A stretch of 64,000 bases of DNA. It comes from Methylobacterium haplocladii. GTDB taxonomy: Bacteria > Pseudomonadota > Alphaproteobacteria > Rhizobiales > Beijerinckiaceae. The translations under genes and the position numbers were made by a program. Shown one piece after another: positions 1,496 to 4,861 of this stretch. The stretch lies in NCBI RefSeq assembly GCF_007992175.1, contig NZ_BJZT01000008.1:1-64000 (forward strand), given 5' to 3'. The notes under the pieces are model-generated. The model saw only the letters and a program-made list of their open reading frames with translations, was not told the DNA's origin and did not search any database. Position 1 is the stretch's first letter; each line of letters starts with the position of its first letter.

Positions 1496-1647
1496 GGCGG
1501 TGGTGAACGGACCGTCTGCCGCAGCCCAGGATAGATGCCGATCGTGCTGGTTTCGCGGGTCTCGGTATCGGCACCGTTTGCCGGATCGCGACAATTGCGC
1601 GAACCGCGCAGGGGATTGACCGTGCGCGCATCCCGGCCCACATCAGG

Positions 1648-1756
1648 ATTCTTCCAGGGAGATCCCCGACAAGGGGCTGAGACACCGCTATCGCCATCCT
1701 CGGCAGCGCGGAAATCCTTCGAACCTGATCCGGCTCATACCGGCGTAGGGATTGGA
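1648..1756 (+). promoter_or_regulatory. TPP riboswitch (THI box)
   Basis: The conserved thiamine-pyrophosphate aptamer core is readable. AGGGAGATCCCC starts the element, GGGGCTGAGA follows at 1673-1682, and GAACCTGATCCGGCTCATAC continues into CGGCGTAGGG, ending near 1750. These match the pyrimidine- and pyrophosphate-sensing helices of the family. It lies about 80 bases before the preferred thiO start, so it probably represses the thiO-thiS-thiG-thiE operon when TPP is plentiful, through translation or termination control. Which of the two cannot be decided by eye. Confidence 0.95.
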
Positions 1757-1835
1757 CCGCGGGCGTCTCATCGAAGGACGCCCCAGCTTCACCGAAGCGC
1801 GGCACCTGATCCCTACGGGCAACCGTGGAGGCTTC

Positions 1836-3059
1836 GTGTCGGCTGTTCTGACGTCCCCGATCGGTCTTCGACGCGGCCTCGGCCTGCGACCGCGTGCGGC
1901 CGCGCTGCCGCAGCACTCCGACATCGTCGTGGTCGGCGGTGGATTGATCGGGCTGTCGATCGCCTGGCGGCTTGCCGGCGACGGCCGTTCGGTGACGGTG
2001 CTCGAGCGCGAGACCGTCGGCGCCGGGGCGAGCCTCGCCGCCACCGGCATGCTGGCGCCGGCCGCGGAGCACGAGCCGGGCTCCGATCTGCTCCTGCCGC
2101 TGGCTTTGGACAGCCTGTGCCGCTGGCCGGTGTTCCGGGACGCGCTTCAGCAAGCCTCCGGCGTCGACATCGACTACCGCGAGGAGGGCACATTGGTGCT
2201 CGCCATCGGCCGCGACGAAGTTGAACGGCTCCGCTTCCGGCACGACCTCCAGCGCCGCTCCGGCGTCGCCGCCGAATGGCTCGCCGGTGCCGAGGTCCGG
2301 GCACGCGAACCGCTGTTGCGACCGAACGTGACCGCCGGGATCTTCTGTCCGCTCGATGCCCAGGTCGATCCGCGCCTCGTGATGCTGGCGCTGGTGCGCG
2401 CCTGCGAAGCGGCCGGGGTGATGATTGTCGAGGATCTTGCCGCCGATGACGTCACCTATCGGGGCGGGCAGGCGTCCGGCATCGTGACGAACCGCGGTAC
2501 ACTGGCCGCCGAGACCGTGATCCTCGCGACAGGTGCCTGGAGCGGGGAGGGCGGTCTGCTGACGGATGCGCTCGGTCTGCCGGTGCGGCCGATCAAGGGA
2601 CAGTCGCTGGCGCTGAAGACCACGACGCGCACCGGCACCCTCGCGCACATGATCTGGACGGAGCAGATCCACATGGCACCGAAGGGCGACGGCTCGCTCA
2701 TCGTCGGCGCCACGGTGGAGGATTGCGGGTTTCGCGACGGCGTCACCGCGGGCGGGCTCTTCGCCCTGCTGGAGGGCGCACGCCGGGTTCTGCCGGGCGT
2801 CGAGGAGATGGAGGTCGAGGCCGTCTGGAGCGGCTTTCGCCCGACCTCCGACGATGATGCCCCCATTATCGACACGCTGCCGAACGGCCTCGTCGTCGCG
2901 ACAGGCCATCACCGCAACGGTTATCTGCTGGCTCCGTCGACGGCGGATGCGGTGGTCGCGTTGGTGGAGACGGGAACGGTTCCGGAGGTCTGCCGGGGCT
3001 TCGGCCTCGGCCGATTCGCTCAGACGAACAGCGGGCCGATGCGGAGAGCGAGCGCGTGA
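1836..3059 (+). CDS. thiO: Glycine oxidase ThiO
   Basis: FAD-dependent glycine oxidase, which oxidises glycine to the imine used to build the thiazole ring of thiamine. A DAO-type dinucleotide fold opens with GGGLIG at residues 34-39, and the C-terminal flavin-contact motif GHHRNGYLLAP lies at about residue 357. Length is 407 residues, near the family norm of about 370 with an N-terminal extension. The GTG at 1836 is chosen because GGAGG sits five bases before it; a TTG at 1752 would start inside the riboswitch. Its stop overlaps the thiS start, indicating translational coupling. Use of ThiO rather than ThiH implies an aerobic pathway. Confidence 0.93.
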   Translation: MSAVLTSPIGLRRGLGLRPRAAALPQHSDIVVVGGGLIGLSIAWRLAGDGRSVTVLERETVGAGASLAATGMLAPAAEHEPGSDLLLPLALDSLCRWPVFRDALQQASGVDIDYREEGTLVLAIGRDEVERLRFRHDLQRRSGVAAEWLAGAEVRAREPLLRPNVTAGIFCPLDAQVDPRLVMLALVRACEAAGVMIVEDLAADDVTYRGGQASGIVTNRGTLAAETVILATGAWSGEGGLLTDALGLPVRPIKGQSLALKTTTRTGTLAHMIWTEQIHMAPKGDGSLIVGATVEDCGFRDGVTAGGLFALLEGARRVLPGVEEMEVEAVWSGFRPTSDDDAPIIDTLPNGLVVATGHHRNGYLLAPSTADAVVALVETGTVPEVCRGFGLGRFAQTNSGPMRRASA

Positions 3060-3265
3060 GGCTGATCGTCAACGGCGAGCCCTGCGAGCGCGATGCTCGC
3101 GACGTCGCGGCGCTCTTCGCCATCGAGGCCGAGGCGCGCGCGTTGCCGACGGAGGGCATCGCCATCGCTCTGAACGGGCGCGTGGTGCGCAAGCCGAGTT
3201 GGCCGGAGACCCTGCTGAGCGAGGGCGACCGCATCGAGATCGTTCGCGCGATGCAAGGCGGCTGA
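3056..3265 (+). CDS. thiS: Sulfur carrier protein ThiS
   Basis: A 69-residue ubiquitin-fold sulfur carrier. It ends in the required Gly-Gly (sequence ...IVRAMQGG), whose terminal glycine is adenylated and converted to a thiocarboxylate that donates sulfur to ThiG. The GTG start at 3056 overlaps the thiO TGA by four bases. The gene lies 25 bases before thiG, so the two partners are made together. Size and ending fit the family; no oddities seen. Confidence 0.95.
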
Positions 3266-3290: not shown

Positions 3291-4094
3291 ATGACCCGTC
3301 ACGACACGACGCTGACAGCGCAAGGCGATGACGATCTCCTCGAGATCGCAGGCCAGAAGCTGACCTCGCGTCTGTTCATCGGCACGGCCGGCTATCCGAG
3401 TCAGGGGATCATGGCGGACGCGGTGCGCGCCTCCGGCGCCGAGGTCGTCACTGTCTCGATCCGGCGCGTCTCGCTGCAGGGCCACGGCTCCGACACGTTC
3501 CAGAAGCTGAAGGGTGCCCGTTTCCTGCCGAACACCGCCGGCTGCGAGACGGCGCGCGACGCGATCATGACGGCGGAACTCGCCCGCGAAGCCCTCGACA
3601 CCACCTGGATCAAGGTCGAGGTCATCGGTAATCGCGAGACCCTCTATCCCGATGTCGTCGAGCTGATGGTTGCCTGCCGTCATCTCGTCGACGACGGCTT
3701 CACGGTGCTGCCCTACTGCAACGACGATCCGGTAATCTGCGAGCGGCTTGCCGACATGGGCTGCGCCGCCGTGATGCCGATGGGTTCGCTGATCGGCTCC
3801 GGTATGGGGGTGGCCAATCCGGCCAATCTCGAACTGATCTGCCGCCGTTCCCCGGTGCCGGTCGTCGTCGATGCCGGCATCGGCACGGCCTCCGACGCAG
3901 TGATCGCCATGGAACTCGGGGCGGCGGCCTGCCTGATCAACACGGCCGTGGCGAAGGCGGACGATCCGGTGCGGATGGCCGCCGCCATGCGCCACGCGGT
4001 TGCGGCCGGGCGGCTGGCGCATCTCGCCGGACGCATTCCCCGCCGGGGCCGAGCCGAGCCGTCGAGCCCGCAGCTCGGCCTCGTCGGGTCTTGA
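3291..4094 (+). CDS. thiG: Thiazole synthase ThiG
   Basis: TIM-barrel enzyme that joins deoxyxylulose phosphate, dehydroglycine and ThiS thiocarboxylate into the thiazole phosphate of thiamine. The Schiff-base lysine is K108 within [10 protein letters not shown]. The phosphate-binding end shows [10 protein letters not shown] and [13 protein letters not shown]. Length is 267 residues, as usual. The final bases overlap the thiE start by four, so translation is probably coupled. It is the third gene of the riboswitch-controlled operon. Confidence 0.96.
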
Positions 4095-4861
4095 TCCCGT
4101 CATTGCTGCTCGTCGTCACCGACCGGCACGGGTCGGCGCGGCCGCTCGTGGAGACCGTCCGCGCGGTGCTCGACGGCGGTGCTCGCTGGATCTGGTTTCG
4201 CGACAAGGATCTGGAGCCGGCGGCACGACGGAATCTGGCGCTGGAACTGCTCCCCCTCGTGCATGGGGCCGGCGGCTGGCTGACGATCGGCGGCGACGCT
4301 GTGCTAGCTGCCGAGATCGGCGCGGATGGGGTTCATCTCGGCGCCGAGCATTTGGACCTCATGCCAAAACCGGCCGATGAGTACGGCGATCGCGCGCCGA
4401 ACCCTGAGCCGTCATTGCGAGGCGAAGCCGAAGCAATCCAGGGCCAATGCTCCGAAGCCAGCGTGTTGGCCCTGGATTGCTTCTCTGCGCTCGCAATGAC
4501 GGCGGGGGCTCTCGGGACGCGTGCGAGACAGGCGGAGCCACCGCTGATCGGCCTGTCCGCTCACAGCCTCGGCGATGTCCGCCGGGCGGCCCAGGCTGAT
4601 GCGACCTACACGACGCTGAGCCCAGTCTTTTCGACGGCGAGCAAACCTGGCTATGGTCCGGCCCTCGGGCTCGACGCATTGCACGCAGCTGCTGCCATCG
4701 GCCTACCCCTCATCGCCCTCGGCGGCATCGCGCCCGAGCATGCAGCGGCCTGCCGCAAGGCCGGCGCCGCAGGCATCGCGGTGATGGGTGGGATCATGCG
4801 GGCGGCCGACCCGGCCGTCGCAACGCGGCGCTATCTGAAGGCGCTGGGCGCGTCTACTTGA
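4091..4861 (+). CDS. thiE: Thiamine-phosphate synthase ThiE carrying a REP-derived insert
   Basis: Couples hydroxymethylpyrimidine diphosphate and thiazole phosphate to thiamine phosphate. Family motifs are present in order: VTDR near the start, [40 protein letters not shown] and [10 protein letters not shown]. At 256 residues it is about 40 longer than typical ThiE. The extra length sits in the loop between the DGVHLG and IGLSAHS motifs, where residues 107-138 are encoded exactly by a 94-base palindromic repeat. The reading frame is kept and the catalytic motifs are intact, so the enzyme is probably functional. Its last eight bases overlap the convergent GlcG-like gene. Confidence 0.93.
4409..4502. 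repeat. REP-like palindromic repeat inside thiE
   Basis: A 94-base imperfect palindrome bounded by CCGTCATTGCGAG and its inverse CTCGCAATGACGG. The inner arms are GAAGCAATCCAGGGCCAA and TTGGCCCTGGATTGCTTC, with a short central loop. It looks like the intergenic palindromes common in alphaproteobacterial genomes. Here it lies wholly within the thiE reading frame and is translated as 32 residues (codons 107 to part of 138). A diverged second copy is at 7281-7373. Confidence 0.9.

Follow-up and report, generated by a model that had tools for sequence, protein, structure and literature searches.

The last gene of a thiamin (thi) operon in Methylobacterium haplocladii holds a long palindrome inside its reading frame, which raises the question of how such a sequence came to lie there and whether it is read as protein. 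We analysed this locus in a window of 64,000 nucleotides (the whole stretch under study, contig NZ_BJZT01000008.1, positions 1 to 64,000), together with the genome to which it belongs and with other genomes of Methylobacterium, the genus in which kinship and named relatives place it.

The palindrome occupies positions 4408..4503 of the forward strand, and the inverted-repeat, fold and genome-copy evidence identifies it as a CGTC-REP dimer composed of two inverted REP units of different types. Both its outer arms (4408–4421 and 4490–4503, 14 nt) and its inner arms (4430–4447 and 4466–4483, 18 nt) are 100% complementary, and an intact frame of 256 amino acids runs through it, bearing out an earlier note on this DNA, which had described a near-perfect inverted repeat lying in frame in a thi gene. 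As RNA, positions 4405–4506 are predicted to fold at −70.5 kcal/mol (z −10.9), a value reached by none of 200 shuffled sequences. A CGTC tag stands at 4410–4413, with its complement at the right end of the dimer, and a tail fitting CCA is present in the left unit (GCAATCCAG) and mirrored in the right unit; the unit ends, read by eye, pair as ATTGC/GCAAT with interior mismatches, and in the RNA fold the tag is able to pair inside the dimer. Passages of Di Nocera, De Gregorio and Rocco (2013, PMC3733652) describe the CGTC REP unit as having an unpaired CGTC tag at one end, a short CCA-fitting tail, a stem of 8–9 bp and a loop of 4–5 bp.

No second copy was found in the window at up to three mismatches to a 30-nt core (one occurrence, none expected by chance), and a 12-mer gave 13 loose matches versus 11 expected, two of the 13 being the ends of this same element. 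Genome-wide, copies were found in at least 47 places, at least 40 with a first query (80 strand-wise matches corresponding to 40 places; 40 of 106 candidates were scored) and seven further ones with a second, so that the proposal of a dispersed REP-type repeat was upheld. A pattern for one unit gave 51 hits, its reversed control none. All 40 fetched copies are inverted dimers of two unit types, the query itself being a dimer; 32 carry the CGTC tag at both ends, seven at one end and one at neither, and the AATCCA tail occurs in one or both units of 38. As outlined in the same paper, CGTC REPs are mostly alphaproteobacterial and mostly dimers, predominantly inverted (HH), lack a known transposase or associated transposase genes, and are in some cases intragenic. 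The element of the window resembles this super-family in its outer-end CGTC tag, CCA tail, inverted-dimer form, alphaproteobacterial host and dispersal, and in the in-frame intragenic position that some members also share (PMC3733652, as far as its passages on these repeats go).

Whether the repeat was inserted into the gene can be judged from related genomes. Using the protein of an insert-less congener as query, and sorting the resulting rows by reading, we obtained matches in 109 of 111 genus genomes, of which 103 cover the loop in one stretch and four are split by an insert. The insert is present in four of the 111 genomes and lacking in 104; the remaining three allow no call, as one matches only after the loop (G029) and two show no match (G097 and G110). 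In a further genome, G036, the match falls into two overlapping pieces (G036:C1:7416652-7417241) with no insert between them, and its thiE-like gene is probably frameshifted. The carriers are M. haplocladii and its nearest named relatives by host protein, M. brachythecii, Methylobacterium sp. C25 and M. gnaphalii, which together form one clade with support of 99/95 in a 50-row tree of thiG nucleotide sequences. The segment between the conserved GVHL and SAH motifs is 27–34 residues long in 41 of the 45 loci measured, including G036, which looks frameshifted, and G064, which is cut by a contig end, and 72–79 residues in the other four. The notion of an insertion between two conserved motifs is thus borne out, the repeat being absent from 104 of the 108 congeneric genomes that could be judged, and neither of the two outcomes that the earlier note named as refuting it was seen in the genome search and the loop measurements. 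No clean empty-site junction for the thi-gene insert was obtained from the nearest insert-less species, owing to their divergence. Elsewhere in the genus, one congener (L058, genome G013) has a REP-like sequence close to the 3′ end of its thiE-like gene, which lacks the insert.

The segment measures 79 residues in the window protein, 72–76 in the three relatives and about 31 in insert-less congeners, giving a gain of about 48 residues in M. haplocladii. The earlier note had put the addition at 32 residues; positions 4409–4502 do encode 32 (residues 107–138), and the total gain exceeds that figure. A left extension of the element (4371..4411, forward strand) is similar to the left flanks of the genome copies L167, L004 and L020, with z scores of 6.0, 4.9 and 4.6; these are the three best of 39 comparisons, and all three belong to a ten-copy set chosen by eye beforehand. 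Against L004, 31 of 42 aligned columns are identical, counting in the tag-adjacent CCG. The similarity suggests that some 40 bp to the left of the palindrome also belong to the element. On the right side, an extension reached only z 1.1–2.2 in the left-flank comparison, which is not significant, and z 4.1 against L006 in another comparison. Within the genome, a subset of copies (L002, L003, L004, L010, L020 and L167) represents a larger form of the repeat, its left flank extended over about 40 bp of TTCGGTCGATGCGTTCGGGCCATC-like sequence, and the right flanks of L002, L004 and L020 are also alike.

The structural context of the insert was examined in an AlphaFold model, in which the barrel blocks have pLDDT values of 81–98, most of them 90–98 and one at 81. 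Residues 91–150, between strand 4 (80–83) and strand 5 (152–157), fall to 43–72. ThiE (2tps) is the closest solved fold to the host protein.

The host gene (4091..4861, forward strand) is an intact open reading frame for a TMP-TENI protein, whose PF02581 match of 126 bits (gathering cut-off 27 bits) is divided into two stretches flanking the insert. Its TTG start overlaps the stop of thiG (3291..4094; PF05690, 343 bits), and it is the last gene of an operon on the forward strand that is headed by a TPP riboswitch (1647..1769; RF00059, 60 bits, gathering 54.3) and continues with a gene for a thiO-like FAD-dependent oxidoreductase (1752..3059; DAO, PF01266), an ORF with a Gly-Gly end that we take to be thiS-like from this motif (3056..3265), and thiG. 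The true start of the thiO-like gene is probably downstream of 1752, since that position falls within the riboswitch match. Upstream, the window also contains a tRNA gene on the reverse strand (659–731).

The earlier note had named the host gene thiE and an essential-pathway enzyme, an assignment that our analysis renders doubtful. The window protein scores 106.3 bits against the ThiE model TIGR00693 (cut-off 145.1; an insert-less congener reaches 116.9) and 70 bits against the TenI model NF005819 (cut-off 251). The ND and GQxD motifs of ThiE have a catalytic role; seen in B. subtilis ThiE, which was aligned with an insert-less congener, they are replaced in the window protein by GG and GAE. 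The best TMP-TENI gene of the genome lies elsewhere (L155, 163 bits), has both motifs as read by eye and is followed by what appears by eye to be the start of thiD; a third match (C27) scores 65 bits. With the motifs replaced, the scores below both cut-offs and both motifs present in L155, the host gene is, on sequence grounds, a ThiE/TenI-like paralogue and not canonical ThiE, its product perhaps being a thiazole tautomerase. Since a canonical ThiE gene exists elsewhere in the genome, calling the host gene essential is unsafe.

That second gene also brings up the idea that the host gene is a decaying pseudogene whose loss might be tolerated, in which case the insertion would be uninformative about what the protein can accommodate. 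We consider this very improbable given the open frame, the conserved motifs and the presence of the gene in 109 of 111 genus genomes. Moreover, outside the insert the window gene differs from its three relatives by a dN of 0.23–0.26 versus a dS of 0.88–1.15, which indicates purifying selection on the host gene; the dN/dS of the rest of the gene is low, at 0.22–0.27 for the window genome against the three relatives and 0.22–0.29 among these relatives.

An open frame through the repeat is in itself not improbable, as 141 of 240 frames through the 40 copies are free of stops. The substitution tests were made on the inserts of the three relatives, the window insert having no close relative for such a test. 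These inserts, all 87 bp long, give a gap-free in-frame alignment, whereas gaps interrupt the core in each of the four intergenic orthologous pairs examined. Of a minimum of 26 changes in the insert, 15 fall at third codon positions (P 0.009 versus one third). Restricting the count to the 28-nt arm stretches that correspond to the family model leaves six of 12 changes at third positions (4/5 in the left arm, 2/7 in the right), with P 0.016 against a family expectation of 0.19 that was derived from the variability of 68 family arms, and P 0.12 without a single hypervariable column, where the expectation is 0.30. An earlier version of this arm test (9/14 third-position changes, P 0.0003) was dropped because it compared unlike stretches, and the matched test was used instead. 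Within the insert, synonymous and non-synonymous changes are few (3 and 9, 8.5 and 8.5, 11 and 10 for the pairs), with no synonymous excess in the pair of M. brachythecii and C25, one of the three, and the dN of the insert is similar to that found outside it in the gene. Translation of the repeat, which the earlier note had asserted, is thus likely from the open frame, kept at equal length, and is suggested by the third-position lean in the three relatives, a signal that is weak in the stricter arm test.

The strength of the fold invites another explanation, namely that the palindrome persists for the sake of its RNA, as a hairpin influencing stability or attenuation where the thi operon ends, its translation being incidental. 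All four inserts fold far better than shuffled sequences (none of 200 equal in each case; z −10.7 in M. haplocladii, −9.4 in M. brachythecii, −4.7 in both C25 and M. gnaphalii), so the hairpin may be under constraint, and many REPs have been argued to be transcribed and maybe to act as RNA (Di Nocera et al., PMC3733652, in its passages on this point). The hairpin may, however, be mere inheritance, and it is clearly weaker in C25 (−43 kcal/mol) and M. gnaphalii (−48 kcal/mol) compared with M. brachythecii (−62.5 kcal/mol), while frame and length have stayed. On balance, we regard a function as RNA as unlikely.

The reading that we prefer, and consider quite probable, is that a REP dimer together with about 40 bp was inserted, kept in frame and translated, lengthening the loop by about 48 residues, with no need for a new function. 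A CGTC-type REP dimer plus about 40 bp of the extended repeat form would have landed in the loop after β-strand 4 of a ThiE/TenI-like TIM-barrel protein. We propose that it was retained because its total length was a multiple of three, its frame was open and the loop tolerated a flexible excursion. The insert would be transcribed and translated along with the gene that closes the TPP-regulated thi operon, yielding a protein longer by about 48 residues of which no new function would be required. Translation, a retained enzyme function, the neutrality of the insert and any route by which the repeat moved are the inferred parts of this account.

How many insertions took place is a separate matter. 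Alignment of the sister species showed that all three carry a REP in the same loop as M. haplocladii and in another frame, in which it reads VIASEAKQS. Their inserts have a common position, frame and much of the spacer, which is most simply explained by one old insertion; the window copy differs from them in spacer, left-arm type and left flank as well as in frame. To weigh this, we compared each insert with its nearest copies (L192, in which no core was found, was dropped, duplicates were merged to 56, and the C25 insert was cut with some flank, as its right arm has decayed). The window copy is closest to a copy in its own genome (L002, identity 0.932), the M. gnaphalii insert to that of M. 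brachythecii (0.841), the C25 insert also to that of M. brachythecii, tied with one window-genome copy (0.811), and the M. brachythecii insert to a copy in its own genome (L177, 0.89).

These affinities, the different reading frame and a left extension of a type found in other copies of the window genome would fit a repeat family that entered the same permissive loop twice independently, once in the lineage of M. haplocladii and once in the common ancestor of its three relatives. Such a history needs two hits within a few codons, yet only one of 40 examined copies has domains on both sides, and the nearest-neighbour evidence is weakened by the M. brachythecii insert, whose closest match is another copy in the M. 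brachythecii genome. We hold two insertions to be possible, at slightly less than an even chance.

Repeat cores outside genes give a measure of what a differing sequence can mean. Four intergenic copies with similar-flank counterparts in relatives have core identities of 0.80–0.86, and random pairs of copies within the window genome have a mean of 0.845, this identity being computed slightly differently from that of the orthologous pairs. A pair of intergenic copies from two species with matching flanks (L017, G000:C4:94650-94746, and L189, G095:C23:105386-105479) appears to have its long-type and short-type arms swapped, as if the core had been inverted or replaced. Repeat cores thus seem to turn over in place, so that the differing sequence of the window copy is by itself no proof of a second insertion. 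It could have arisen from a single insertion before the four species diverged, if gene conversion or a further insertion into the resident repeat later overwrote it in the window lineage, shifting the frame and adding the left extension. Consistent with this single event are the restriction of the insert to one clade and to the same loop in all four species, intergenic orthologous repeats whose identity is no higher than that of random pairs, the one apparently arm-swapped pair and the gap-rich immediate flanks; against it stand the unlike spacer, left-arm type, frame and left flank, and no sequence exclusive to all four inserts was seen. We give this history an even chance, and it is compatible with our preferred explanation.

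Copies of the repeat with domains on both sides are rare in the M. haplocladii genome, one of the 40 examined. Among 30 spanning ORFs from these 40 copies (each 170 aa or longer, with no fewer than 25 aa between the element and either end), only the thi gene has Pfam domains flanking the repeat on both sides. Three other copies lie in open frames with a domain only downstream, just after the element: in L014 this is a solute-binding protein domain, in L006 a GNAT acetyltransferase domain and in L008 a further substrate-binding domain; these are possible leader-region or N-terminal coding copies. Another dimer is flanked by two conserved genes (L029, G000:C13:65109-65205), and the corresponding stretch is shorter in five of six congeners (C25, M. 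brachythecii, M. gnaphalii, G046 and G049) and longer in G016, probably a presence/absence difference among congeners. A clean empty site and a target-site duplication, sought at this intergenic locus, were not found, the spacers aligning too poorly for a junction, and the empty site sought for L002 matched in place on one side only.

Palindromic repeats lying in frame in conserved genes are known from the RPEs of Rickettsia (Ogata 2000 and 2002, as cited in passages of PMC2229807 and PMC10969869), the parallel drawn by the earlier note. The likeness holds, and in its passages on RPEs PMC3733652 already extends it to free-living bacteria, equating RPE-4 with a CGTC-4 REP and RPE-6 with a CGTC-1 REP and reporting GTAG and CGTC REPs inside genes of many bacteria. 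RPEs differ in that their hosts are Rickettsia, with many genes hit, whereas here the host is Methylobacterium and one of 40 examined copies has domains on both sides. MITEs with in-frame fusions (ERIC, Correia/NEMIS and RPE, as treated in part of PMC2229807) are likewise small palindromic repeats whose frames are fused to host genes, a likeness limited to palindrome and gene fusion, as neither a target-site duplication nor a related transposase was established here. In-frame intragenic repeats as such are therefore known, and the present locus is a well-supported new example. Methylobacterium does not occur in the main text of PMC3733652, and a literature search of open-licence papers found no prior report of a REP in this thiamin gene; compared with the CGTC REP paper, as far as its passages on intragenic copies extend, new features are the thiamin gene as host and the orthologous loops of sister species with the repeat in two frames.

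A bolder reading, which we offer tentatively as one chance in perhaps three, is that the loop after β-strand 4 serves as a standing site where REPs land or are exchanged; in one clade the peptide would have been swapped for a REP in another frame, with selection keeping the length a multiple of three and treating the settled peptide as ordinary protein. The locus provides, in a genus with named and cultured species, an intragenic REP that can be traced over four species and two frames, with about 100 insert-less congeners as controls. Two open questions can thereby be put to the test: by what route CGTC REPs, which have no known transposase, are moved, and whether repeat-derived peptides come under selection as part of a protein. 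If the loop is indeed an exchange site, repeat DNA would act there as a coding cassette that can be replaced again and again.
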